The translations under genes and the position numbers were made by a program. Shown in pieces: positions 8,998-27,125 of a stretch of DNA of 33,649 nucleotides. The stretch is from Candidatus Mediterraneibacter tabaqchaliae (GTDB lineage Bacteria; Bacillota; Clostridia; Lachnospirales; Lachnospiraceae), in assembly GCA_019120595.1 (NCBI GenBank), contig DWUV01000144.1, positions 1 to 33,649 on the forward strand. The letters are read 5' to 3'. Positions within the stretch are counted from its first letter, which is position 1. Every line of letters starts with the position of its first letter. The notes under the pieces are model-generated. The model saw only the letters and a program-made list of their open reading frames with translations. It searched no databases and had not been told where the DNA came from.

Positions 8998-10617
8998 TCA
9001 TCGGAGCATCCCTTCTTTTATGATCTCTTCCCCGTTTCCTTTAAAATACGGGATCGAGTGCGATGTATTTGCAGACGAAGCGAGCAGATGGATCTCTCCT
9101 TTCCGGATACCGCAGGCCTTTGCCAGAGGGTTTCTGGAAAAGCAGACGTACTGGATCTTCCGGTATCTCACGATCAGGTACGTCCTTGCGAAATACCCTT
9201 TCGCCAGCTTCAGGAAGTCGTTTCCCGCCAGCGAGCCATCCGTCAGATATTTCAGGATCATTCCCGCCGCCAGGCAGAATTCAAGCGCTGCTGCCCCCGC
9301 GGCTGCCCAAAGGGCATATTCCGGCATCGCGGAAGCGCACACTGCCGCGCAGGCTGCCACGATCACCGTATAGATCAGCGCCGGGACAGACCATGCCGCC
9401 CAGACAGAGGAAGGCTGGCGCTCCACCGCCGCGCCCGCCGCATCCAGAAACTCCGGGAGCAGGGCTGTCAGCCGCTCATTCAGCTTCGCTTCTGTCGAAT
9501 ACAGGATGAGGAAGGAATTCTTCTCATCATTGTCATCGCCCATCCCCACATTGACGATCTCCGCCATGTACCGTTTCCCGAGACGCGCGACAAAGGACTG
9601 CTTCAGCCGCAGCGCCTGTATCTTATCCACAGGGACCGTGTACTCCACTTTCTTGAAAAATCCGTATCGGATATAGATCTTATCCCCGCGCCGTTTCGCA
9701 CGGAAATCATAATACCTGACAAAGTCTTTGACCGTATCCCACAGGGCGGACGCAACGATCAGGGCTGCCACAAGAACACCTGACGCCGCGCCGATCAGTG
9801 TCTGAGCTGCATCCGGGCTTCCCACGATCCGGAATACCGTGCCCACCGCCCCGGCGATACCGAGTATGATGACCGCTACAGACAGGATATTCACCGAGAA
9901 TAATCCATGCTGCAGGATATCGGCCAGATCAGAGCGCACGTCATAATCCTCAGTCTCAGCCGCATCCCCGGCCGGCGTCATCCCCGCCTCTCTCAGGGTC
10001 TCCCCCGGCGCGCCCGCTGCCGCCTGCTGCGCAGAAAAACCCTTCCCGGCTCCCGACTCCGCGTCACGGATCCGCCTCGTCACCTCCTGCTTAAACGCCA
10101 GGGCTTCCGCCTTTTTCAGGACGATCCTCACATCCGTGCTGTCCGCGGTGGAGCGGCTGTTTGTATCCAGCTTGACCTTGCACGTTCCCAGGAGCATCTC
10201 AAAGAGATTCTGCTCAGTATTAATATTGGAAATATTCCGGATGCCAATGGTATTTTTCTTTTTATTCAAAGTGTTCCTCTCGATCACGACCGCGTTGTCC
10301 TGGAGAGATATGTAAGTCTTTGACCAGACGGCAAACTGGAGCGCGATGACAGCGAGGAAAAACAGGATCAGTCCCAGATTGACCAGCAGCCATTTCCCGT
10401 CCATAAATTCCAGCCCTGACTCCATCAGTTCATCGATATTCTCCAGCAGGGACGGGACCAGCACGATCAGAAGCGCGATCAGAAGCCCGCCTGTCTGCTC
10501 CGCGATGATAGAAATGTGATTGCGGAACCGCATGCCCTGTGTTTTCTCTGTCTGTTTCTTCTCTGTCTTCGCCTCCGCCTGTCCGCCTGACGGATTTTCT
10601 TTGTCTTTCACATTCAT
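8998..10617 (-). CDS. PH domain-containing membrane protein (bPH2, YdbT-like)
   Basis: Repeated TM pair plus bPH2-like segments (VIERNTLNKKKNTIGIRNISNINTEQNLFEMLLG; YIRYGFFKKVEYTVPVDKIQALRLKQSFVARLGKRYMAEIVNVG). Confidence 0.85.
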   Translation of the reverse strand: MNVKDKENPSGGQAEAKTEKKQTEKTQGMRFRNHISIIAEQTGGLLIALLIVLVPSLLENIDELMESGLEFMDGKWLLVNLGLILFFLAVIALQFAVWSKTYISLQDNAVVIERNTLNKKKNTIGIRNISNINTEQNLFEMLLGTCKVKLDTNSRSTADSTDVRIVLKKAEALAFKQEVTRRIRDAESGAGKGFSAQQAAAGAPGETLREAGMTPAGDAAETEDYDVRSDLADILQHGLFSVNILSVAVIILGIAGAVGTVFRIVGSPDAAQTLIGAASGVLVAALIVASALWDTVKDFVRYYDFRAKRRGDKIYIRYGFFKKVEYTVPVDKIQALRLKQSFVARLGKRYMAEIVNVGMGDDNDEKNSFLILYSTEAKLNERLTALLPEFLDAAGAAVERQPSSVWAAWSVPALIYTVIVAACAAVCASAMPEYALWAAAGAAALEFCLAAGMILKYLTDGSLAGNDFLKLAKGYFARTYLIVRYRKIQYVCFSRNPLAKACGIRKGEIHLLASSANTSHSIPYFKGNGEEIIKEGMLR

Positions 10618-11096
10618 TCGCTCTCACCTGCCCTCTGCCCTGCGGCGATCTCATTGATCCTCCTGCGCAGGGTCTCCGCGATCTGCTCTGCCCGCTCCTC
10701 CTCGAGAAATTCCAGCGTTACATCGCCGCCCCCTGTAGTCACGATCACCTTTGCCACGCCGAACATCTGGTCGATCGGCCCTTTCTTTGTCTGCAGCTTG
10801 TGCAGGCGCTCGATCGGGACAATGTTGCGTTTCACGAACAGGTACCCTTCTATGATGTCAATGCATTCGTCATTGATGCTGTACCGGTAGCGGTTGTAGC
10901 GGAAATAGGGGCTGACCGCGACGTCAAAAAGGATCAGCACGGCAAGGATCAGCGAGATCCATTTCCCTGCGGTCAGATCTTCGGGAAAGATCCAGAAATA
11001 ATCCACCGCGCCGATGACCGCCAGGACGACTGCGCCGGTGATGATCCCCGCCACATACATACAGTACAGAGCACGTTTCGATAAGTTCTCATACAT
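10614..11096 (-). CDS. PH domain-containing protein (bPH2, YdbS-like)
   Basis: YRYSINDECIDIIEGYLFVKRNIVPIERLHKLQTKKGPIDQMFGVAKVIVTTGGGDVTLEFL; 4-bp overlap with the downstream partner. Confidence 0.87.
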   Translation of the reverse strand: MYENLSKRALYCMYVAGIITGAVVLAVIGAVDYFWIFPEDLTAGKWISLILAVLILFDVAVSPYFRYNRYRYSINDECIDIIEGYLFVKRNIVPIERLHKLQTKKGPIDQMFGVAKVIVTTGGGDVTLEFLEEERAEQIAETLRRRINEIAAGQRAGESE

Positions 11097-11131: not shown

Positions 11132-11172
11132 TCCCGCATATTGTACTATGAGTTTAATACAATAATACGGGA
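11132..11172 (-). terminator. Probable terminator after enolase-like gene
   Basis: Imperfect ~14-bp inverted repeat (minus strand TCCCGTATTATTGTA...TACAATATGCGGGA) followed by T-rich tract. Confidence 0.5.
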
Positions 11173-11186
11173 TGTCACTCCTTCTG

Positions 11187-12464
11187 TCAATCTCTTTCTG
11201 TCTCCGGCCCTTCCATCTTTTCCCCGATCCGGAGCAGACGGTTATACTTCGACGTCTGCTCAGAGCGGCAGGGCGCTCCTGCCTTGATCTGACCGGCATT
11301 GAACGCTGCCGCGATATCTGCGATAAAGGGATCCTCCGTCTCCCCCGGGGAGCGGGAGATCACTGTACGGTAACCTGCTTCCTGCGCTGTCCTGATCACT
11401 TGAAACACGCCGCTCAGCGTACTGATCCGGTTCGCCCTGACCAGGACTGCATTCGCCGCGCCCAGGCTGCGGCCCTTTTTGATCCGCTCTGCATCTGCGG
11501 CAAAAAGCGCGTCTCCCACAAGCTGCACCCGGTTTCCCGCCCGTTCAGTCAGGATCCGCCAGCCGTCCCAGTCTTCCCGGTCCAGAGGGTCTTCTATGGA
11601 ACAGACCGGGAACTCGGATATCAGCTCTTCATAATATCGTATCCTCTCTTCTGTCGTCCATACCTGACTTTGCTTCTCCACGCCCGGTGCGTACGCCTGC
11701 CGGTCCGGGTCATCCCCCTCCGGCGCCGATGCGCCAAGGGCAAACCACAGATCTTTTCCCATGCGGTATCCCCGCCGCTCAGCAGCGTCCCGGATCATCC
11801 GCAGAGCTTCCCGCACGTCCCGGACCGCCGCGGAAAGCGCGCCATCCTCTCCCGCGGCAGCGAAATATCCTCTGTCTTTTAAAACATGTTGCAGAGAATG
11901 ACAGACTTCGGTGCACATCCGGAGCTGCCCGCAGAAAGACCGCCCCTCCCTTGCCGGAACGATCATAAACTCCCGGATGCCCGGCTGGCTGTCCCGGCAG
12001 GATCCCGCATTCATTATATTCATCACAGGCACCGGCAGATTCACTGCCCGCACGCCGCCCAGGTAACGGTACAGCGGAAGCCTCAGCGCCTTGCCGGCTG
12101 CACGCGCCGCCGCTATGGAAACGCTCAGCAGGGCGCTGTTCTCCGGATCTCTTTCCCCCGGTCCGCCTGCTGCCCGGAGCAGCGCCCGGTCGATCTCCGC
12201 CTGGCAGAATACATTCCTGCCGATGATCTCCTCCGCGGCCCTGCTGTTTATATTTTCCACCGCCTGCCTGATCCCGCACTCCCGACCTCTGCCGCCCTCG
12301 CCCGGCTCTGATGCATTATTCTGCCTGCCGGAAGCTCCTGATGGCACTGACGCCCTTCCGACCACATCCTCCCCGGCCAGCACCTCTGCCTCAATGGCAG
12401 GATTCCCTCTGGAATCCAGTATCTCTCTCGCGTATACGTCCCTGATCAAAAGCTGCCTCTCCAT
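11187..12464 (-). CDS. Enolase-like protein with substituted active site (probable pseudoenzyme)
   Basis: Full-length enolase homology (VYAREILDSRGNPAIEAEV, VPSGAS, LPVPVMNIMNAG, IREFMIVP, CSIEDPLDREDWDGW, LVGDALF, PGETEDPFIADIAAAFNAGQIKAGAP, KYNRLLRI), with key catalytic residues replaced. Confidence 0.9.
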   Translation of the reverse strand: MERQLLIRDVYAREILDSRGNPAIEAEVLAGEDVVGRASVPSGASGRQNNASEPGEGGRGRECGIRQAVENINSRAAEEIIGRNVFCQAEIDRALLRAAGGPGERDPENSALLSVSIAAARAAGKALRLPLYRYLGGVRAVNLPVPVMNIMNAGSCRDSQPGIREFMIVPAREGRSFCGQLRMCTEVCHSLQHVLKDRGYFAAAGEDGALSAAVRDVREALRMIRDAAERRGYRMGKDLWFALGASAPEGDDPDRQAYAPGVEKQSQVWTTEERIRYYEELISEFPVCSIEDPLDREDWDGWRILTERAGNRVQLVGDALFAADAERIKKGRSLGAANAVLVRANRISTLSGVFQVIRTAQEAGYRTVISRSPGETEDPFIADIAAAFNAGQIKAGAPCRSEQTSKYNRLLRIGEKMEGPETERD

Positions 12465-12532
12465 GCTCCGTATCCTCCTGCCCTGTAAAATCTGTGTGTG
12501 ATATAGTTTCTCCCCAGTCCGCCGCCTTAATG

Positions 12533-12588: not shown

Positions 12589-13431
12589 ATGAAAAACAGA
12601 TTCCAGTATTTTTTCATGCTGACATTCAGCACCCTGCTGATCGCAGCCGGGACTTATTTTTTCAAATTCACAAATAACTTCACATTCGGAGGCATTACGG
12701 GACTTGCTGTGCTCGTGGCAAAAACCGGCGCCATCTCCGCCGGGGATTTCAACCTGATCATGAGCATGATCCTCCTGGTGATCGGACTGGTCATCCTCGG
12801 AAAAGGATTTGCCGCAAAAACCGCATACTGCAGCATCCTCCTTTCTGTCGCCCTCTCGGCGATGGAACGGTTTTTCCCGATGGACGGCCCGTTTACCGAC
12901 CAGCCTATGCTGGAGCTTTGCTTTGCCATTGCGCTTCCGGCGCTGGGTTCCGCCATCCTCTTTAATATCGGGGCTTCCAGCGGAGGCACGGATATCATTG
13001 CCATGATCCTGAAGAAATATTCCAGCTTTGATATCGGGCGCGCCCTGCTCGTATCGGACGCGCTGATCACAGGGGCAGGATTCTTTGTATTTGATATAGA
13101 GACCGGACTGTATTCGCTTCTCGGCCTGGCGATCCGTTCTTTCATGATCGATACTTTTATCGAGAGCTTTAACCTGTCCAAATACTTTAATGTCGTGTGC
13201 GACCACCCGGAGCCGATCTGCGACTTCATCGTTCACACTCTGGGGCGCAGCGCCAGCGTCTGCCATGCAAAAGGCGCTTATTCCGGCAAGGATAAATATA
13301 TTATCCTGACTGCACTGAACAGAGTCCAGGCAGTCAAGCTGAGAAATTATATCCGCGAAAATGACAAAGAAGCCTTTATCCTGATCTCCAATACAAGCGA
13401 GATCATAGGCAAAGGCTTCCATAGTGTATAA
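12589..13431 (+). CDS. YitT family membrane protein (YitT/DUF2179)
   Basis: FGGITGLAVLV, ILFNIGASSGGTDIIAMILKKYSSFDIGRALLVSDALI, C-terminal DUF2179-like GAYSGKDKYIILTALNRVQAVKLRNYIRENDKEAFILISNTSEIIGKGF. Confidence 0.93.
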   Translation: MKNRFQYFFMLTFSTLLIAAGTYFFKFTNNFTFGGITGLAVLVAKTGAISAGDFNLIMSMILLVIGLVILGKGFAAKTAYCSILLSVALSAMERFFPMDGPFTDQPMLELCFAIALPALGSAILFNIGASSGGTDIIAMILKKYSSFDIGRALLVSDALITGAGFFVFDIETGLYSLLGLAIRSFMIDTFIESFNLSKYFNVVCDHPEPICDFIVHTLGRSASVCHAKGAYSGKDKYIILTALNRVQAVKLRNYIRENDKEAFILISNTSEIIGKGFHSV

Positions 13432-15878: not shown

Positions 15879-18800
15879 TTATCTTGTCCTTCTGTTTCTC
15901 CTGCGCGCTCTTCTGACAACTTTTGCCCTGAGGCTCATCATTGCCATTACAGCTGCGCCCGCAGCGCCTGCCACGATGATCATGATCACGATCGGTGCCG
16001 CGTCTCCTGTCTGTACTGCTTCCACAGTCGGGCTTCCTGTTGTGCCTGTATTTCCTGAGCCTTCGCTGCCGGAACCGGATGCTTTCTCTGTCCGGACTGT
16101 GATCACTGCTGATTCCGAAAGATTTCCGGCTTCATCATAAGCCCTTACGCTGATCTCGTATCCTGTATCCGCTTTCAGGTTTTTGATGACTGCCTCTGTG
16201 TCAGCCACTTTTCCGATCTCCAGGCCATCTACATAGATCACGTACCCTGCCACGCCTTTATTGTCTTTCGACGCGGACCATTTGACTGTGACTGTAGAGG
16301 AAGTAACCTCTTTGGCCTCGAGTTTCTCGGGAGCAGTGGGTGCTTCTGTATCCACATCCGGCTCAACCGCTGATCCTTTGACTGTCACCGTACATTCTGC
16401 CTTTAATCCAGCTGCATTCGATACAGTGATAACTGCTTCTCCTGCTTTCAGTCCTGTGACGTTTCCAAAACTGTCAACAGACACTGTCTCCGGATCGGAT
16501 GAGCTCCACACGAGACCTTTGAGCAGCGTCCCCTCTTCGTGTCCCACTTCAAGGGCAATCATTTCTCCAACGCTGATCTCCGCGTCTTCCAGAGAAGCGG
16601 AATCCGCTACCTTCTGGATTTCAAACGGAACTACTTCCTGAAGGCTTGCAAAATTATAGCCGCCCTGCTCAACATAGATTACAAGATATTTTCCTGTCAG
16701 CGTCTCCGGGAACTCCGTCGTCACCCACGCTCCGGATGTATACAGTTCATCCGGCACTGTAATGGACTCGCTCGCATAGACCTCATTATTATCTGCATCC
16801 AGGATCACATAACGGTACTGGGAAATCCTTCCGTTTATATTACCGTCATTTCTCTGGAGGAAGTTAAATCCGCCAAAGGAAACCGTGTCCCCAAGATCGA
16901 TCGTAAGGATCGCCGGATTGTCCGGGCTTACATTAAATCCTGTGGTGCTCCAGTTGGAGTGCCACCTTGTTGAAGTATTCCCATCGACTGCATACGCTGC
17001 CGTACCAGTCTCCTCTGTGTTCGCTGTCGCGGACATCTCAAGCTGGTCTGCGATCTCCACGATCACCCGATCGGTCACTGTGATCGCAAACTCTGCGATG
17101 GTTTCTTCACCCACTGTACCCGTGATCGTCACTTTACCTGCTCCGATCGCTCCGATGGTGAGAGTCTCCTGATCGAAATCTACGACTCCTTCATCGCCAG
17201 TGCATGTCCACTCTACTTTCTCAAGGTTGCTTCCGTAGATCGCTGCCGTCTCGCCCTTGTACAGTTCTGTCTTGTCAATGCTTGCCGCAACGGCATCCTC
17301 ATCCACTGTGATCACCAGGTTGTCGAGGATAAAGTCGTTCTGGCCGGTTGCAGTCGCGCCTGTCGCACGGCTGCCGTTCTCATAGAGACCGATCCATGTC
17401 TGGCCGCTGCCGCTTCCGATCACCTGCATCGTTACATGGCCTGTATTCGCCTCTCCGCCGCCGGTCTTCTGTGCAAGGTACTGGTCTTCCGATGGCAGTG
17501 TATATGTCGTGCCGTCTCCGACTACCATGGCGTATGCCCTGTCCGGTCCTGACTGATAGTCAAACTCAACCGTGTAGACCTTACCCGGCTCGAAGCGGAA
17601 ATTCTGCGGGATCGTCTGGTAGATGATCCCCGTATTCGCGCCGTGATGCTTCAGCGACCACTCGCCGTCAATGACGTCATCTGTCGCTTTCTTGTTCTGC
17701 CATCCTGCCTGTGTATATGGAGCGTGGAGTTCTGCCAGATGGGTTACCGGATCGGAAACACCCTGGGCTGAGCTGAGCACAAACGGATACAGACCCTGGA
17801 CAACAGATTCGAAATCCTGTTTAAAGCTACCGTTTTCATCAAAATTATTCAGCGTGATCTCTACGATACGGATATCATCCATATATGTGGATCCCGGTCC
17901 TGCTTCCCTGAAAAGAGTCAGGTTCGCGGTCGGTCCTTCCGCTGTAAAGGATACCTGCATGCGCTGCATGTTCGTACCGTGCTTCTGGTCGCTCTTTACA
18001 TAGTTGGCCGCGATCGACCTCATCGTGTAATTGGAAACGCTGCTGCTTCCTGTATTGACAGCGATCTCCGCCTTTGAATCACTTGCATTGTCCACATATA
18101 CTTCCGCCACATATTCCACGCCTGTCTTAAGCCCGGAAATCTGAGTCGTTACTGCCACATCCGCTGACGGGCTGTTGAACGCAAGCCTCTGGTCTCCTGT
18201 GGAAGCTTTTTCTACCACCACTGCCGGATCATCGATATCTCCGATCCAGTCAGCCCCGTCAAGGGATTCGCCTGCGCCTGCATAGCCGTTGAAGCCCGGA
18301 TCTGTCACATACTGGTCACCGAAGTCATCTTTGAGTGTCTTTGATGCCTCGCCTTTCAGAACAACATAAGCTGTCTCTGCCTCTGCTGTCAGAGTGATCT
18401 GACCGTTCTCAACCGGAACATTTACAGCCTCTCCTCTGCCCTGGTCAGACAGCGGATATACGACTACATTCGCAAGTCCTGCCCAGTCGTCCTGGAGCTC
18501 CCATGTCGTCGTGCCGCCTTCCAGGTTCCAGTGATACAGCTTCTCTTCGCCTGTCTCATCATCTGTCCACGGAAGCAGGTACTCTACATCGTCAAGAACC
18601 TTTTTGCCATTGAGAGTGATCGTACGCTCAATATAGCTGTCCGCTCTCTGCTCTTCGTTTCTTGTCACTACTACAGTGTCGTTGTCATCATTCTTCAGAG
18701 TGATCTGCTTCTCCTGGTTGCCTACCGGAGACTCCCCGTCCTCGTAGTCTTCCCAGTCAGTCACATAGTAGTGCTGCAGGAACTTTGTCGGAAGGTTCTC

Positions 18801-21800
18801 TGTGAATGTCTCTCTAATGTACTTGTTGAAATCCTGGTCTCCGCCCCAGCCTTCAAAGCCATACAGCCTGAATCCGCCGAGCAGCGGGTTGTCCGCCGCG
18901 CCGCCGAAGGACGGGTAGTTGATGACCTGGACGTCTCTCTGGTCATTGCGGATGAAACGGATGATCTCACTGTTGTATCCCTTTGTGGTATTGCCGCCGT
19001 AAGCCGCGTCTGTCGCCCAGTGGGACCATGTGGAGTCATACTCGCCCTCGTACGGGAACTCTGTCGTGAATCTCCATCCGAGAGAATTGATCTGCTCAGC
19101 GATCCTTCTGGTCTCCCAGGCATCCTGGTACCATACATCCAGATAGATGAAGTCCATATTGTCTTCCAGCCCTGCTGCATACTCTGCGATCTCATCCATC
19201 GTCGCGTTGAGTGTTCCTTCGGACTCTCCGACATACTCGCCCTTATCCCAGTCTCCGCTGTAGAAATCAGTCTCATTGATACGGTCGAACAGCTGCACCA
19301 TTCTCTTGTATCTTGCCTGGCTTCCGAGATCCCACAGCTTGTCGATGACATAGGACTGATCCAGCCATCCCCAGCCGTTTCCGGAACCGTTGGATACCAT
19401 TGTGTTATTAAATGACTTGGACTCCGGATAGGACTCCTGCGCGTTGATATGGATACCGATCTCTGCGCCGTAATCATGAGCGATCCTGATCAGTTCCTGG
19501 AATCCTTCCACGCCGCCTTCCCTGTCCGCAATGTGCGCGTACTCAGAGTTCGCGGAGTCATGTCCCTCGCTTCCGTATCCCTTCAGCATAACTGCCTGCG
19601 GAAGTCCGTCTGTCGCGAGGTAAACTTTCTTGATATTGTCTGCTGTCGTCATGTACGGATTGGATACCATACTTGCAAAGTTCATGACAATGCGGTAATT
19701 GACAAGATTTTTGATATCCTCTGCATCCTGCGGGACATTCATGATGTCGCGGAATGCCAGAGCGCCGTCATTCCAGTCAAGGTCGCCGTCTTCGTTCATA
19801 TCGCCTGCGATGCAGACTTTCGCGCACGGAAGCTCGCTTACAGGATACTCATAATCGCTCTTTTTCTGAGCGTTCGCGTCTCCGTCTTCATAATACCATT
19901 TTGCGCTTGCAAGGCTCATGGTATCTGCGCCGCTGTTCAGGACGACTCTTTCATCGCCTTCGATCTCGGAATTGCTCCAGAGGCCGGCGCTTAAGTTCCC
20001 GTTTGTGAGGAATGCATAGAGGTATCCGTCTGTTGTTGACGGGTTGAACCCTTTCTCCCATGTGATCTCTTTGTCGCCGTTTGTGACTGTAGAGTTGGAT
20101 GCTTTCGCGCCGTTAAACACCGCGTCTGCCTCTACCGCGTCCACGGAGATAAGATTGAGCTGCGGGATGTCGATCGACGCGATGTCAGCGCATCCGTCAT
20201 TCTTCGTAAGCTCTGTCACTTCCCATGTCAGGTCGTTGTCATCCACACTGATCTTCACTGTCATGGACAGATCGATCGCTTCTTCTTCATCCGCCAGGGA
20301 CATGCTGTATGTCTGTGATGTTTTATCATTTGTTACTTTTACATTTTCCGGTGTGATCGCAGCGCCGTTGATCATGATCTCACTGAGCTTCGTCTCCTGC
20401 GCGCGGAAGATCGTCTCTTCTTTATCTTTCAGCACGTATCTTGCCACGAGCGGGAAGTCTTTCCCCACATACACTGTCATGTAGTCAGATGCGATGGAGT
20501 CATAATCCTCAAGATCGATCGGTGTCTTCTCCTCCAGCTGGATATCGAATACATTCGCTCCGCCTTCTTCTACTGTCACCGTCTCTTCATATGCCTGATA
20601 TCCCGGCGCGGTTGCTGCCACATTGTACTCTCCGACTTCAAGAGCTGCAAATGCGTATGTACCGCTCGCGTCTGTCTCGGAAGCATTTACGCCGAAACGG
20701 ACGGTTGCGCCCTGGATGGGTTCGCCGTCTGCGTTCTTCACTGTTCCGGATACATCCTCAACAGCTGTGTAATATGTATCCGTCACCTGTCCGTTACGCT
20801 CTGCGCACCAGTCCCAGTTATCTTCCATGCAGTCTGTACCGTTGACTTTCAGATCGGCAAACTCGACTTTTGTCGCGCCGTTTGTCTTAACGCCGAATTT
20901 TCCCGTGCCGTTCAGCTGCTCTGCAAGTGTGAGCAGGTTCGGCGCGGACACGCTTGTCCTTGTGCCGTTCACGGAGACCGCAAGCTGCTCCCTGGAAAGA
21001 GAGATCTCGATCGTCATCTCCTCGCCCGTCTCAGGAGCCGGGAGGCCTGCAAGCTGCGGATAGCTTCCGCTTCCGTTCAGGTTGTACTGATAGTACCACT
21101 TGCTGGATGAATCATATCCGATATAGAGCCAGTTGCTGTCATTCTTATACATATAGAAGATACCAAAGTTATTGCTGTTAACCGGACGGAATGTAAGGGA
21201 CAGCGTACCGTCAACCGGCATTGTCCTGTCCTGATCCAGCAGAAGCGCCGGAGCCGCTGTATTGGCGTTTCCGTAGGCATGCCCGCCGCCGTTATTGGAA
21301 CCTCCCTGTACGGTGATCCATTTTCTTCCCTTCTGATCCGGGTCCGGTGTATCCCCGCCTTCGCCGTCATCGCCGACTTCTACGGATACAGACGGCTCCC
21401 AGGTCTGTCCTTCTGCGTCTTCTTTGTACAGAGACCAGTTCCTGTAGTCATCCGCCGTATACTCGCGTTCGCCGACAACAAGGTCCGCGAAATAAATGTC
21501 CGTATAAGACGTGCTGTATGTAGCTGCTCCGAAACCGATCTGTCCGGCCTCATCTTTCAGTGAATTAAAAGATGCATCCGTAACCGATGCGGTTCCTGAC
21601 TCTCCGCTTGTCGTATTGTTTACCGTAAGCTCAAGTCCGCTGTCCTTATAACTTCCGGAAAACTCCACGACATCGTTCTGGTTCAGGGCCGGAAGCCCTG
21701 ACAATCCGGGATATGCACTTGCCCCGTCTGCCGCATACTGGACAAACCAGTTGTTCGACATCCCGTCATATGCGATGAATGACCAGTTGTTATCATCCAC

Positions 21801-22088
21801 ATATTTGTTCACAAAGCGGAAACGGGTGTCATCTTTCGTGCTTCCCACTTTCAGCGTAAAGCTGAAGTCTTCGCCTGTAACATCTGTGTTATCCGACAGG
21901 ATAAACGCTTCCGGCGTTGCTCCGCCGAAATGTGCATTCGCATTTCCGCTGCCGGACTTTAAGTGCGCCATCTCTTTCATGATCGGCGCAGCAAGCACTT
22001 CCAGCGACGGAAGATATGCCATTACGGTGGTGACCACCATAGCGGCAGCCAGCATCACAGATGCCAGGCTTTTCCATGCTCTTTTCAT
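15879..22088 (-). CDS. GH101 endo-alpha-N-acetylgalactosaminidase, multidomain, surface-anchored
   Basis: Signal peptide; two N-terminal concanavalin-like modules; CnaB/carboxypeptidase-regulatory-like repeat (SGTVKNADGEPIQGATVRFG); GH101 core MDFIYLDVWYQDAW...GWRFTTEFPYEGEYDSTWSHWATDAAYGG; F5/8-type CBM32 (DGNTSTRWHSNW); Big_2-like Ig; FN3; C-terminal QTGD-TM-Arg tail. Confidence 0.92.
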   Translation of the reverse strand: MKRAWKSLASVMLAAAMVVTTVMAYLPSLEVLAAPIMKEMAHLKSGSGNANAHFGGATPEAFILSDNTDVTGEDFSFTLKVGSTKDDTRFRFVNKYVDDNNWSFIAYDGMSNNWFVQYAADGASAYPGLSGLPALNQNDVVEFSGSYKDSGLELTVNNTTSGESGTASVTDASFNSLKDEAGQIGFGAATYSTSYTDIYFADLVVGEREYTADDYRNWSLYKEDAEGQTWEPSVSVEVGDDGEGGDTPDPDQKGRKWITVQGGSNNGGGHAYGNANTAAPALLLDQDRTMPVDGTLSLTFRPVNSNNFGIFYMYKNDSNWLYIGYDSSSKWYYQYNLNGSGSYPQLAGLPAPETGEEMTIEISLSREQLAVSVNGTRTSVSAPNLLTLAEQLNGTGKFGVKTNGATKVEFADLKVNGTDCMEDNWDWCAERNGQVTDTYYTAVEDVSGTVKNADGEPIQGATVRFGVNASETDASGTYAFAALEVGEYNVAATAPGYQAYEETVTVEEGGANVFDIQLEEKTPIDLEDYDSIASDYMTVYVGKDFPLVARYVLKDKEETIFRAQETKLSEIMINGAAITPENVKVTNDKTSQTYSMSLADEEEAIDLSMTVKISVDDNDLTWEVTELTKNDGCADIASIDIPQLNLISVDAVEADAVFNGAKASNSTVTNGDKEITWEKGFNPSTTDGYLYAFLTNGNLSAGLWSNSEIEGDERVVLNSGADTMSLASAKWYYEDGDANAQKKSDYEYPVSELPCAKVCIAGDMNEDGDLDWNDGALAFRDIMNVPQDAEDIKNLVNYRIVMNFASMVSNPYMTTADNIKKVYLATDGLPQAVMLKGYGSEGHDSANSEYAHIADREGGVEGFQELIRIAHDYGAEIGIHINAQESYPESKSFNNTMVSNGSGNGWGWLDQSYVIDKLWDLGSQARYKRMVQLFDRINETDFYSGDWDKGEYVGESEGTLNATMDEIAEYAAGLEDNMDFIYLDVWYQDAWETRRIAEQINSLGWRFTTEFPYEGEYDSTWSHWATDAAYGGNTTKGYNSEIIRFIRNDQRDVQVINYPSFGGAADNPLLGGFRLYGFEGWGGDQDFNKYIRETFTENLPTKFLQHYYVTDWEDYEDGESPVGNQEKQITLKNDDNDTVVVTRNEEQRADSYIERTITLNGKKVLDDVEYLLPWTDDETGEEKLYHWNLEGGTTTWELQDDWAGLANVVVYPLSDQGRGEAVNVPVENGQITLTAEAETAYVVLKGEASKTLKDDFGDQYVTDPGFNGYAGAGESLDGADWIGDIDDPAVVVEKASTGDQRLAFNSPSADVAVTTQISGLKTGVEYVAEVYVDNASDSKAEIAVNTGSSSVSNYTMRSIAANYVKSDQKHGTNMQRMQVSFTAEGPTANLTLFREAGPGSTYMDDIRIVEITLNNFDENGSFKQDFESVVQGLYPFVLSSAQGVSDPVTHLAELHAPYTQAGWQNKKATDDVIDGEWSLKHHGANTGIIYQTIPQNFRFEPGKVYTVEFDYQSGPDRAYAMVVGDGTTYTLPSEDQYLAQKTGGGEANTGHVTMQVIGSGSGQTWIGLYENGSRATGATATGQNDFILDNLVITVDEDAVAASIDKTELYKGETAAIYGSNLEKVEWTCTGDEGVVDFDQETLTIGAIGAGKVTITGTVGEETIAEFAITVTDRVIVEIADQLEMSATANTEETGTAAYAVDGNTSTRWHSNWSTTGFNVSPDNPAILTIDLGDTVSFGGFNFLQRNDGNINGRISQYRYVILDADNNEVYASESITVPDELYTSGAWVTTEFPETLTGKYLVIYVEQGGYNFASLQEVVPFEIQKVADSASLEDAEISVGEMIALEVGHEEGTLLKGLVWSSSDPETVSVDSFGNVTGLKAGEAVITVSNAAGLKAECTVTVKGSAVEPDVDTEAPTAPEKLEAKEVTSSTVTVKWSASKDNKGVAGYVIYVDGLEIGKVADTEAVIKNLKADTGYEISVRAYDEAGNLSESAVITVRTEKASGSGSEGSGNTGTTGSPTVEAVQTGDAAPIVIMIIVAGAAGAAVMAMMSLRAKVVRRARRRNRRTR

Positions 22089-22220: not shown

Positions 22221-25200
22221 CTATGCTCTCCTGTTCTGTCTGCGGAGGACTGCCGCCGCAGCTGCTGCCGTGCCTGCTGCCAGCATCAGGATGATCCAGC
22301 CGTATCCCGCTGTATCCCCTGTCTTCACTGCCTGATCCCCTGCATCATTTTTGTCGTCGGAAGCGGACGGCTTTCCGTCTGCCGGTTTATCTTCCGATGG
22401 TGTCTGCGGTTCGTCTTCCGGCGGTGTCTGCGGCTCGTCTTCCTGACCGCTCAGGCTCATTGCCTCTTCCGCTTTTTCTATCAGTTCTGCCGCATCTTCT
22501 GCGGAAATCTCGTCTGCATTGATCGCTTCCCAAAGCGCATCCCTGATCTCCTTCACCTGGGCGAGCTGTTCTTCGCTCAGGCCTGTCAGGTCTTTCTGTC
22601 CCAGAGACTCCTCAAGTCCTGTCATCTCCAGGATCTGTTCTTCTGTTGCCTTCAGGACAAGGCCGGCGTAAGCTTCTTCCAGGGCTGCTTTCTGATCCTC
22701 TACCTGCTGTTCGGTCTGCGGGTCATTGAGTACCTTTTCTGCATTTTCAAGCGCTGTCTTCATCGCTTCCGCCCCTTCGCTCATATAAGCGGAGAGATCG
22801 CCAAGCTCTGCTTTCAGGCTTTCATACAATGCCTTCAGCCCTCCCGTATCCGGTCTGACCTCCACATCTTCAGCCGCTGCCGCCAGATCTCCGATCATGG
22901 CCTTTACATCGGCCGGGGCTGCTGTGCCTGCTTCCAGCATCTCTGCCGCCCTGCCCAGAACATCCTGCAGAGTATCCCATGCGCCGTTCGGCAGGTACTG
23001 ATCTGTCGTCCACCCGGAATAGAGATCATACAGCGTCTTAAGTTCCGACATATCCGCCTTCAGTGCAGTCCTTGCATCTGTCAGTCCCTGTATTGCCTCA
23101 GCCACTTCGTCTGCGGCCGCATTCTCATCCGCCAATACCTCTTCTGCTCTGCCGAGAGCCTGCTCATACTGCTCCCAGCTCTCTTTGTCATATCCGTCTT
23201 CTGCTAACGGGTCTGTAACCGTATACTGTGTCCACAGATCCCGAAGAGCCTCTTTGTCTGCTTTTTCCACCAGACTTCCGGTCCGGAAAACAAGCGCAGC
23301 GATCAGGTCCGTCACTTCCCTGGATGACTCTGCATCCTGCAGTTTCGGCTCATTCTCATTCATCCACGCCTCAAATGCAGCCCATGAATCCGGTGTATAC
23401 TCTGCTTCCTGCTTCCTGATCTCATCAAAACGGGCTGCTGCCCTTGAAATATCTGTGAGCGCTTCCTGCGCGTCCTTCAGGTTATCTGCTGTCCGGTCGA
23501 TCAGGCTCTGGGATGCCGGCATCTCCGAATCCAGCACTGCGTTTGCCGCTGCCAGCGCTTCCGCATAAACAGACCACGTAACGTCAGAATAATCTTCTTC
23601 TGCCAGATCTGCCGCCCCGTCTGCAAGCGCCTGTAATTCCTCTGTATTTCCCGGTATGATCACCCCATCGCTGTACTCATGGAGCTTAAGCTCCGCAAGG
23701 GAACAGCTTTCCGTACCGGAACTGTATGCCTCATACGCGACAAAGCGTACATACTGCGCCTCCACAGGCACAAACTCGATCTCCTGCCATGCCTTAGTAT
23801 CAGCCAGTGTACCGTGGGCAGCTTCCGTAAATTCCGTACCGTCTGTACTTACTTCAATGCCGTATTCCTTAATGCGTCCGCTGGAGCTGTTCTGGCGCGC
23901 AAGATAATCTACTTTATAGATCGTCTTTGCTTCCGGAAGTTTCAAAGTCACGGACTGGGGAAGAGTGATCTCATCATTCCCCCATGTGGAATGCCAATAG
24001 GTAGCCGGGTTTCCGTCTATCACGTTGACAGCCGCTCCGTCAGTATTTTCCGCTGTGCTGCTGCTGTGCTGTGTAGTATATGTGACCTCTGTCCCTGCAA
24101 GATCGATCTCCGTGTTGGCAAACAGGACCATCGCTGTCAGCGCCGGGCTCATACCCTGGATATTTTCAAGCATTCCGTTCTCCAGGTCCGGCCCTGTCAG
24201 CCTCAGGATGCCGACAGTTCCTACCGGCACCGCAACTGTGAATACTACCGTATCCGTACCGGATCCGCTGACATAATCTGCTGTGATCTCCTCTGATCCC
24301 ATTGTCAGAGTGAGCTGCGGTTCTCCGGCTGCCATGATCACCTGGTCAAATGTCAGGGCGATCTCTGCCGTGCCTTCCCCTCTGATCTGTACGTCATGCG
24401 ATACGAGCTGCGGGGCATCCATCTCCTCAGGCGTCACTGTGCCTGCCTTGAGATAATTCTCATCAAACTCGAAATATTTCAGGCGCATTGATCCGTCTGT
24501 ATCATCCTCATACATAATGGCAAATTTCGGATTTTCAGGATCTGCCGCGCTGTCTGTAAGCGTCAGGCAGGAATACGCAAATTTTTCATCCGCGCCGTTG
24601 ATTTCGCGGTTGTAATCCCAGCTGATGCTTCCGTCAGCCTGTACCTGTCCGAGATACATCCTTCCGTTCATACGTCCATTGCCGCTTGCATTGCTCAGGA
24701 GCACCCACTCGGTCCCATCCGCCTTGGTGTAATGGATCACGGAAAGCTGACAATAGTTTTCCTTGATTTCAATCGTATCTGCGGAAGCCCATGTCGCGCC
24801 GCCGTCTTTGCTGACCGCCACGTATACTTTGCTGCCGCTGCAGTTTGTCCTCATAAAGAGAAGCACGTCGCCGTTATCCAGCTGGACCGCCTGCGATTCC
24901 GTAAGCATACCGCCGCTGTTCATCGTCGCACGGTCATTCCCTTTGACAGTCTGCGGTGATTCTCCCAGATGCCATGTCTGTCCGTTATCGTCACTGTATA
25001 TTACTGCAGACGACTGGGAACTTCCTACATTTTTATTTGCCGTGTAGACCGGCACTACCAGCCTGCCTTCGTAGTCCCCTGTATGGAGCTGGATCCCCAC
25101 TCCGGGGCCTGTGCCGAAGAATACGCACCATTCCGGTTTTACCTGCGGTGTGATATCCACCGGGTCTGACCAGGTCTTACCGTCGTCGTCCGAAGTAACC

Positions 25201-27125
25201 AGCCAGAGATAGCTCGTATTCAGCACTCTGAGTTCCCCGGCATCCGGACCGCTCTTCATATAGATATTGCCCCGATACTCACCGTCTTTATAGAGATTGC
25301 CTTTCTCCTGCAGGGAGACTCCTGCGGCATACGGATATACGATGACCGTATAGCCTGTATCCTCTCCGTTATTGTCCAGCACATGGCCGATCCCGTCTTC
25401 CACATCGGAAATATAACCATACTCTTCTTTTTCTTCCGGGTTTGTATACAGGATCTGACAGTCAGCGCCGTCCACCTTTTTATAGCCGACCCCCGGCTGG
25501 ATCAGGTTTGTATTCATAAGGCCGCTGCTCTCCGGGAACATATCCACAAAGGCAAAGATCCTTCCCGACTCCTGCTCCTGCACTGTCGCCATATCTATCG
25601 TAAATGCGGCTGAACCTCCGTTATTCGGCAGGTCGATCAGGGTAACCGAATCCGCGAACTGAGTTTCCCCCGCTTCCTTCCTGCGCACCACAGCATCGAT
25701 ATTTCCGGCGTCCTGTGTCCCTGAATTCCTCTCATCTATAAACGCGAGCTGGGTCCCTTCCTGCGTGGTAAGCAGGGACGGGATCCTGTACTGGGAATTT
25801 TTATATCCCGGGTAGAACAGGTCGATCGTCTCAGACTTGTACGCGTTCTCCATATCCAGTTCCGGTTCTGCGGTCCACTGGGTAGCGGCATGATATTTTT
25901 CAACAGTCTCTGCCGTAAACACTTCGCTGTAAACAGACACTTCGTCTATTACACAGGGATGATACCATATGCCGCTCACACTGTCTCTGATAACTCCTCC
26001 CAGTGTCATCGTATCCAGATCACTGAGCGAGGCGAAGAACTCTGTTTTCTCTGACGCAGCCGCCAGCTTCCCGTCTACGTAAAGCTTTGTATCTGTTTCG
26101 CCGAACACCCATGTCAGTGTGTGCCAGTATGTATCATTGATACTGATCGCTTCCCCGTCCGCATAAGTACTCGCAGAGAAACTGTTAAGATGGGCATTCG
26201 CCTGTCTGAGTTCTAATCCCACGGTATTATTGTTTACATAAAATGCCGCGTAAGTCGCATCGGTTGTGCCCGTCGAACGGTCTGACAGACTGTAGAGCCC
26301 TGTCAGGCCGCTGTCAGCCGCATTCATCCGATAACGGATATTCACTGTTCCGTTTGACAGTCCGGCGACATCTGACAGCCCCTCTGATACATCCTGCGGC
26401 GCTCCTGCCGTGAGATCCACTCCCCGGACCTCATAAGCTGTATCCGCCTTTGTCTGGTCAAATGCATCCACATATTCCGTCACATTTTCAGCCGTAAACT
26501 GTTCTTCATAAACAGAAATCTCGCTTATGCTCAGATCATGATGCCAGTTCGTCCCGCTCCGCAGCAATCCGCCGACAGCCATTGCATCCGCACCCGCGAT
26601 GGATGAGAAAAATGCTGTAGTGGATGCTTCCGCCGCCTTGGCTCCATCTACATATAATATAGTAGATGTATCTCCGAACACCCATGTCAGTGTATGCCAG
26701 TCCGTGTCATTGACATCCTGGTCTGCTGCTGTAAATGTGTTGAGCTGTGACCCGCCGCTCCTCAGTTCCAGCCCTACTGTGCTGTTATTCACATAGAACG
26801 CAGCATATGAGGCTCCCTCAGACTGATCCGACACTGAATAGAGCGCTGTCAGGCCTGAATTAGGCGCTGCCATCCGATACCGGATGTTGACAGTGCCATG
26901 CTCCAGCGCGGAAACACGTTCAACCGAAGCAGACACATCCTGCACATCAGCAGCTTCCAGACCGCTCACCTCATATACCGGCTCTGCGGCTGACAGATCC
27001 GCCGCACTGGCCGGAAGGATCGACTGCGGAACCAGCATTGCCGCAGCAAGTATCGCCGCCAGCAGTTTTCTTCGTTTCTTTTTCACTTGCTTTTTCCACC
27101 TTTCCTCCAATACCGATTCCAGCAC
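22221..27125 (-). CDS. GH33 exo-alpha-sialidase, tandem CBM40-like, CBM32, FIVAR repeats, surface-anchored
   Basis: YRIPSLL motif; IDERNSGTQDAGNIDAVVRRK; Asp boxes SDDDGKTW, SDDNGQTW, SKDGGATW; two sialidase N-terminal lectin-like modules; CBM32 (DGNPATYWHSTWG); FIVAR-like helical repeats; KTGD-TM-Arg tail. Confidence 0.93.
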   Translation of the reverse strand: MLESVLEERWKKQVKKKRRKLLAAILAAAMLVPQSILPASAADLSAAEPVYEVSGLEAADVQDVSASVERVSALEHGTVNIRYRMAAPNSGLTALYSVSDQSEGASYAAFYVNNSTVGLELRSGGSQLNTFTAADQDVNDTDWHTLTWVFGDTSTILYVDGAKAAEASTTAFFSSIAGADAMAVGGLLRSGTNWHHDLSISEISVYEEQFTAENVTEYVDAFDQTKADTAYEVRGVDLTAGAPQDVSEGLSDVAGLSNGTVNIRYRMNAADSGLTGLYSLSDRSTGTTDATYAAFYVNNNTVGLELRQANAHLNSFSASTYADGEAISINDTYWHTLTWVFGETDTKLYVDGKLAAASEKTEFFASLSDLDTMTLGGVIRDSVSGIWYHPCVIDEVSVYSEVFTAETVEKYHAATQWTAEPELDMENAYKSETIDLFYPGYKNSQYRIPSLLTTQEGTQLAFIDERNSGTQDAGNIDAVVRRKEAGETQFADSVTLIDLPNNGGSAAFTIDMATVQEQESGRIFAFVDMFPESSGLMNTNLIQPGVGYKKVDGADCQILYTNPEEKEEYGYISDVEDGIGHVLDNNGEDTGYTVIVYPYAAGVSLQEKGNLYKDGEYRGNIYMKSGPDAGELRVLNTSYLWLVTSDDDGKTWSDPVDITPQVKPEWCVFFGTGPGVGIQLHTGDYEGRLVVPVYTANKNVGSSQSSAVIYSDDNGQTWHLGESPQTVKGNDRATMNSGGMLTESQAVQLDNGDVLLFMRTNCSGSKVYVAVSKDGGATWASADTIEIKENYCQLSVIHYTKADGTEWVLLSNASGNGRMNGRMYLGQVQADGSISWDYNREINGADEKFAYSCLTLTDSAADPENPKFAIMYEDDTDGSMRLKYFEFDENYLKAGTVTPEEMDAPQLVSHDVQIRGEGTAEIALTFDQVIMAAGEPQLTLTMGSEEITADYVSGSGTDTVVFTVAVPVGTVGILRLTGPDLENGMLENIQGMSPALTAMVLFANTEIDLAGTEVTYTTQHSSSTAENTDGAAVNVIDGNPATYWHSTWGNDEITLPQSVTLKLPEAKTIYKVDYLARQNSSSGRIKEYGIEVSTDGTEFTEAAHGTLADTKAWQEIEFVPVEAQYVRFVAYEAYSSGTESCSLAELKLHEYSDGVIIPGNTEELQALADGAADLAEEDYSDVTWSVYAEALAAANAVLDSEMPASQSLIDRTADNLKDAQEALTDISRAAARFDEIRKQEAEYTPDSWAAFEAWMNENEPKLQDAESSREVTDLIAALVFRTGSLVEKADKEALRDLWTQYTVTDPLAEDGYDKESWEQYEQALGRAEEVLADENAAADEVAEAIQGLTDARTALKADMSELKTLYDLYSGWTTDQYLPNGAWDTLQDVLGRAAEMLEAGTAAPADVKAMIGDLAAAAEDVEVRPDTGGLKALYESLKAELGDLSAYMSEGAEAMKTALENAEKVLNDPQTEQQVEDQKAALEEAYAGLVLKATEEQILEMTGLEESLGQKDLTGLSEEQLAQVKEIRDALWEAINADEISAEDAAELIEKAEEAMSLSGQEDEPQTPPEDEPQTPSEDKPADGKPSASDDKNDAGDQAVKTGDTAGYGWIILMLAAGTAAAAAAVLRRQNRRA

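Follow-up and report, generated by a model that had tools for sequence, protein, structure and literature searches.

Enolase is among the most conserved of the metabolic enzymes. The mammalian sperm-specific Eno4 is an additional enolase paralogue with a specialized role; like the gene reported here it is an extra paralogue, but it comes from an unrelated organism and is likened by description only. The nearest precedent that we found is BmEno2/BmEnoC of Lepidoptera, an extra enolase of independent origin with an altered site, in which a metal-ligand Asp is replaced and the active-site Glu, Lys, and His are changed to Ser, Arg, and Asp (PMC5237310). BmEno2/BmEnoC is eukaryotic and expressed in testis (PMC5237310), while the gene studied here is bacterial. 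A search of open-licence papers turned up none on a bacterial pseudo-enolase; that bacteria maintain such proteins thus appears to be undescribed in the literature covered.

The window analyzed here is a stretch of 33,649 nucleotides from Candidatus Mediterraneibacter tabaqchaliae (contig DWUV01000144.1), whose genome (G000) is an assembly of 2.7 Mb in 236 contigs and is 84% complete. The pseudo-enolase ORF lies on the minus strand at 11187..12464 (425 aa, stop included), and a Shine-Dalgarno sequence AGGAGG (12474..12479, minus strand) precedes the ATG with a 9-nt spacer. The protein matches both enolase domains of Pfam end to end (Enolase_N 3.8e-31; Enolase_C 2.6e-74), and the NCBIfam model eno (TIGR01060) gives 398 bits against an equivalog cut-off of 300. 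The best solved relative is 1iyx (E 5e-104, ~44% identity), and the solved enolases align across residues 6-417. AlphaFold2 predicted a complete enolase fold (pLDDT 83.7, pTM 0.85), with a confidence below 50 mainly at residues 46-60 and 156-159, both of which lie in catalytic loops, and at residues 262-265, and Foldseek matched the model to enolases with TM of about 0.87-0.90. By sequence and predicted fold, the protein is a full-length member of the enolase family; the two Pfam domains, TIGR01060, and the model agree with the claim of the earlier note that the fold-defining segments are present from end to end. Similar to the bacterial enolases (TIGR01060; PF03952 + PF00113; 1iyx, 1w6t), it is a full-length two-domain protein with the dimer residues kept, whereas in contrast to an enolase of the 1iyx/1w6t type it is without the catalytic base, the acid, one metal ligand, and the phosphate-binding triplet. 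Because TIGR01060 scores this apparently dead protein over the equivalog cut-off, automated naming would call it phosphopyruvate hydratase, which makes the gene an annotation trap.

The active site was scored at 12 catalytic/metal positions in yeast numbering, with the residue roles taken from PMC5237310 and, for Escherichia coli, from PMC6863902. Seven positions are lost in the window protein (H159C, E211D, D246G, K345R, H373R, R374S, and S375P), and five are kept (S39, E168, E295, D320, and K396). By alignment, with all coordinates on the minus strand, C156 (11997..11999) replaces the catalytic-loop His (yeast H159), D207 (11844..11846) replaces the general-acid Glu (E211) in the context GEDGAL, G244 (11733..11735) replaces a metal-ligand Asp (D246), R343 (11436..11438) replaces the catalytic base Lys (K345), and R371-S372-P373 (11346..11354) replace the His-Arg-Ser triplet (H373-R374-S375). 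The catalytic set H159, E168, E211, K345, H373, and K396 is thus reduced to E168 and K396, and in the metal-site set S39, D246, E295, and D320 only D246 is changed (to Gly). The seven substitutions would therefore remove the general base, its partner acid, one of the three acidic metal ligands, and the phosphate-binding triplet, and with the five residues that are kept the site is destroyed yet not wholly erased. Judged by its residues, the protein would not be an active phosphopyruvate hydratase. The five motif changes on which the earlier note had based its reading of a dismantled site (NAGSCRDSQ, GEDGAL, ALGASAPEG, VLVRANR, and SRSPGETED) are all present in the window sequence, and the alignment at the structure level placed no replacement catalytic residues elsewhere.

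The same genome encodes one other enolase besides the window copy. This is a separate canonical eno, the presence of which the earlier note had proposed as a check; it lies at G000:C24:12656-13894, is 44% identical to the window protein, and has all motifs intact. With the fold kept, the catalytic residues lost, and an active-type paralogue elsewhere, the window protein would be classed as a pseudoenzyme.

The paralogue is carried by 55 of the 58 genus genomes, being catalytically intact in 23, nearly intact in 1, and dismantled in 31. It was not detected in the remaining three (G049, G037, and G021), so at least these three genomes can do without the gene, provided that their assemblies are complete. 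The 55 genomes hold 56 copies, as G014 carries two: 24 copies have all 12 positions, the copy of G050 is without E211 only, and 31 copies are without three or more. G014 is a bin of 75% completeness and 5% contamination, and its two intact copies (L035, L037) stand in different syntenic contexts; this MAG probably combines two species. Searches in other families of the order usually gave a single enolase. In G034 (L050), an assembly of 98% completeness, a canonical enolase was not found and the sole enolase detected is of the intact paralogue type; this suggests that a genome can manage with the intact type alone.

In most genomes, the paralogue has a divergent YitT gene and usually a bPH_2 pair beside it, with era and topB nearby, and with neighbors this alike the paralogues can be treated as positional orthologues. 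In the window, the conserved divergent neighbor, a YitT-family membrane protein gene, is located at 12589..13431 on the plus strand, and the two bPH_2 (bacterial PH domain) genes, which are the usual downstream neighbors, at 8998..11096 on the minus strand, both being assigned by family match and synteny. A promoter-like TTGACA-17-TATTAT for the bPH_2 genes is found at window 11162-11190, and the TGA that ends the pseudo-enolase lies within its -35 element. A function via an operon with bPH_2 is unsupported, because the bPH_2 genes have this promoter-like site of their own and in G010 and G040 eno persists with no bPH_2 found next to it. Mis-binning as the cause was also rejected, since the flanking genes match those of same-genus genomes by sequence and order. 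Furthermore, dismantled copies are present in assemblies of one and five contigs and are therefore not only a MAG artefact. Elsewhere on its minus strand, the window contains two very long ORFs, 15879-22088 (2069 aa) and 22221-27125 (1634 aa).

The history of the loss was read from a tree of the paralogue copies that was built with the catalytic motifs masked. Five changes between the intact and the broken state are needed on this tree (bootstrap 4-5), at least three of them forced by well-supported branches, which points to about five independent losses of the catalytic site in the genus. The window copy forms a clade with those of G043 and G038 (100/99), and this clade is nested with the intact G014a and the nearly intact G050 (100/99); G052, G001, and G008 are long-branched and their placement is of little certainty. 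The intact second enolase of the genus (the orthologues of G014a, G050, and G010) shares its locus with the window gene, is 61-66% identical to it, and is its direct sister lineage, with an active site that is complete, apart from E211 in G050, where that of the window is dismantled. The ancestor of the window gene was probably an active second enolase; with the canonical enolase present, this second copy would have lost catalysis in the lineage of the window and independently in others. Which of the two enolases, paralogue or canonical, is the older resident of the family was left undecided by a wider tree that is without a known root.

After the first loss, the sister lineage of the window went further, and all 12 positions are lost in G043 and G038. 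The replacement residues at the same positions differ between lineages, and the metal ligands are lost in varying combinations. The earlier note had looked to a recurrence of the same substitutions in orthologues with dN/dS below 1; the dN/dS values were as anticipated (see below), but no one set of substitutions recurs, and intact copies persist. It had also left the choice between a non-glycolytic role and a new substrate. An enzyme with a new substrate would be consistent with the kept enolase fold and with the retention of S39, E168, E295, D320, and K396 in the window; however, such an enzyme should have a replacement site in common, and the differing residues and metal ligands, the loss of all 12 positions in G043 and G038, and the deletion of much of the barrel in ten copies make it very improbable. 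Since there is no single recurring set of substitutions, the copies are unlikely to share a new substrate, and of the two options in that earlier proposal the non-catalytic role is the more likely.

Selection was measured as pairwise maximum-likelihood dN/dS with a likelihood-ratio test (LRT) against 1. The values were 0.283 for window-G043 (LRT 76.8), 0.294 for window-G038 (LRT 70.1), and 0.415 for G043-G038 (LRT 15.3). As these three copies belong to one clade and have lost sites in common, their dN/dS covers evolution after the first losses. Random decay of the orthologues, which the earlier note had regarded as speaking against its reading, is not what these values (0.28-0.42, all significantly below 1) describe. 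The remaining dismantled pairs gave 0.11-0.38, apart from one saturated pair, the 0.11 being found among forms of 222 aa. The intact pairs, including the sister lineage of the window, gave 0.03-0.13, and the controls (neighboring genes and canonical eno) mostly 0.02-0.12, the few higher control values coming mainly from bPH_2 or from pairs with almost no differences. Segment-wise dN/dS on short segments is noisy and was left out of the argument. In neutral simulations, 425 codons stayed free of stops in 0.25% of the runs at 0.2 substitutions per site and in 0/2000 runs at 0.3 or more. The dN/dS and the simulation together indicate that the paralogue is constrained, though clearly relaxed. Between the window and G043, 38% of the residues differ in the paralogue as against 3-7% in the control genes compared; dS is also higher in the paralogue (0.97) than in the controls (0.17-0.67), so that relaxed constraint alone leaves part of the difference unexplained.

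The main rival explanation bears on these same numbers and holds that a redundant gene is in slow neutral or near-neutral decay, in which stops have yet to accumulate. The dN/dS is 3-10 fold over that of the intact copies and controls, large deletions occur in some copies, and three genomes are without a detectable copy, all of which would fit such a decay. However, the reading frame is uninterrupted in each of the 31 dismantled copies, a Shine-Dalgarno sequence is visible in 27 of them (counted by eye), the dN/dS after the loss is significantly below 1 and goes down even further in the shortest forms, and retention is structured by domain. With open frames and such dN/dS, decay without function is disfavored and we consider it unlikely; the ORF appears instead to have been kept by purifying selection since the loss, as in a pseudoenzyme.

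Among the 31 dismantled copies, the dimer residues R8 and E20 (yeast numbering) are kept in 31/31, E417 in 30/31, and R414 in 24/31; of the catalytic residues, K345 is kept in 10% and S375 in 5% or less. R8 and E417 presumably pair across the dimer as they do in the yeast enzyme. In the window protein, codons 6-38 (12351..12449, minus strand) form the N-domain strands b1-b3, a part of the dimer interface, and keep R13 (yeast R8) and E25 (E20), while codons 402-418 (11211..11261, minus strand) form the last helix (a12), which also belongs to the interface, and keep R412 (R414) and E415 (E417); the interface elements are those of PMC4667285, placed for the helix with the predicted fold. The dimer of Staphylococcus aureus enolase is formed by strands b1-b3, a5, and a12 (PMC4667285), and E20 and R414 have been named as residues that allow the homodimer (PMC9452966). 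Helix a5 has no special retention in the dismantled copies. For columns that are invariant in the intact copies, the retention was 0.79 in the interface versus 0.57 in the barrel (p 1e-5), and 0.75 in the rest of the N-domain, which is not significantly different from the interface, so the "interface" is not separable from the "whole N-domain"; the interface strands double as the N-domain core. Nearly all enolases have R8, E20, R414, and E417, which are therefore uninformative on the partner.

Ten dismantled copies have lost barrel segments in frame and are 222-361 aa long, and in all ten the deletions have left the N-domain and the C-terminal helix in place. The short BmEnoC, in contrast, keeps the C-terminal half (PMC5237310). 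The 222-aa form of G031 (L099:5980-6645) still matches both enolase Pfam domains and is predicted (pLDDT 87.9, pTM 0.87) to fold into the N-domain, a half-barrel of four strands, which by order are b1, b6, b7, and b8, and the last helix; over its own length, it matches enolases at TM of about 0.8.

With the N-terminal domain and the last helix retained as the dimerization surfaces of enolase, dimer formation is the most likely way in which the protein acts. We infer that it would pair with another copy of itself or with the canonical enolase and would serve in the pair as a binding or regulatory subunit. On the sequence and model evidence, the gene probably encodes a pseudoenzyme that is retained by selection as a folded protein and acts via dimerization or binding. 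A scaffold of an RNA-degradosome-like complex, or a moonlighting protein displayed at the surface, would also make use of a retained fold in the absence of catalysis, and moonlighting is established for enolase in general (PMC4667285; PMC8928124). Neither was pointed to by any test here, no partner gene was found at the locus, and little of the barrel surface would remain in the short forms, which leaves both roles improbable. If the paralogue were a decoy for an enolase-binding phage protein, its fast evolution would be explained, and a solved anti-CRISPR complex contains enolase (PDB 9no4, titled Csm/AcrIIIA2/enolase complex). However, Csm3-like genes passed the family cut-off in only 2 of the 58 genus genomes, that of the window not among them; the link to a type III anti-CRISPR is thus not supported, and the decoy is the most far-fetched of these explanations.

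For the proposed dimerizing pseudoenzyme, the related species offer at one locus a graded series of intact, nearly intact, dismantled, and half-size copies, which makes non-catalytic functions of enolase (moonlighting) testable with the chemistry already removed by nature. More speculatively, one enolase of the genus could have been converted several separate times to a dimerizing regulatory or structural pseudo-subunit, ending in the half-barrel minimal form of 222 aa. If true, this would be a natural series at one locus from an active enzyme to a minimal pseudoenzyme.

A third protein of the enolase family, 27-29% identical to the window protein, was observed in L080, L081, L082, and L083 (e.g., L081:5989-7263), and TIGR01060 calls it eno too. 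It carries H159Y, E211S, and H373G and keeps the metal ligands, K345, and K396. In L081, its gene is placed directly between genes for glycerate 2-kinase (DUF4147/MOFRL) and glutamate dehydrogenase, with PreA-like and OCD-family genes nearby; this may be a catabolic cluster in which the protein has a glycerate phosphate as its substrate.
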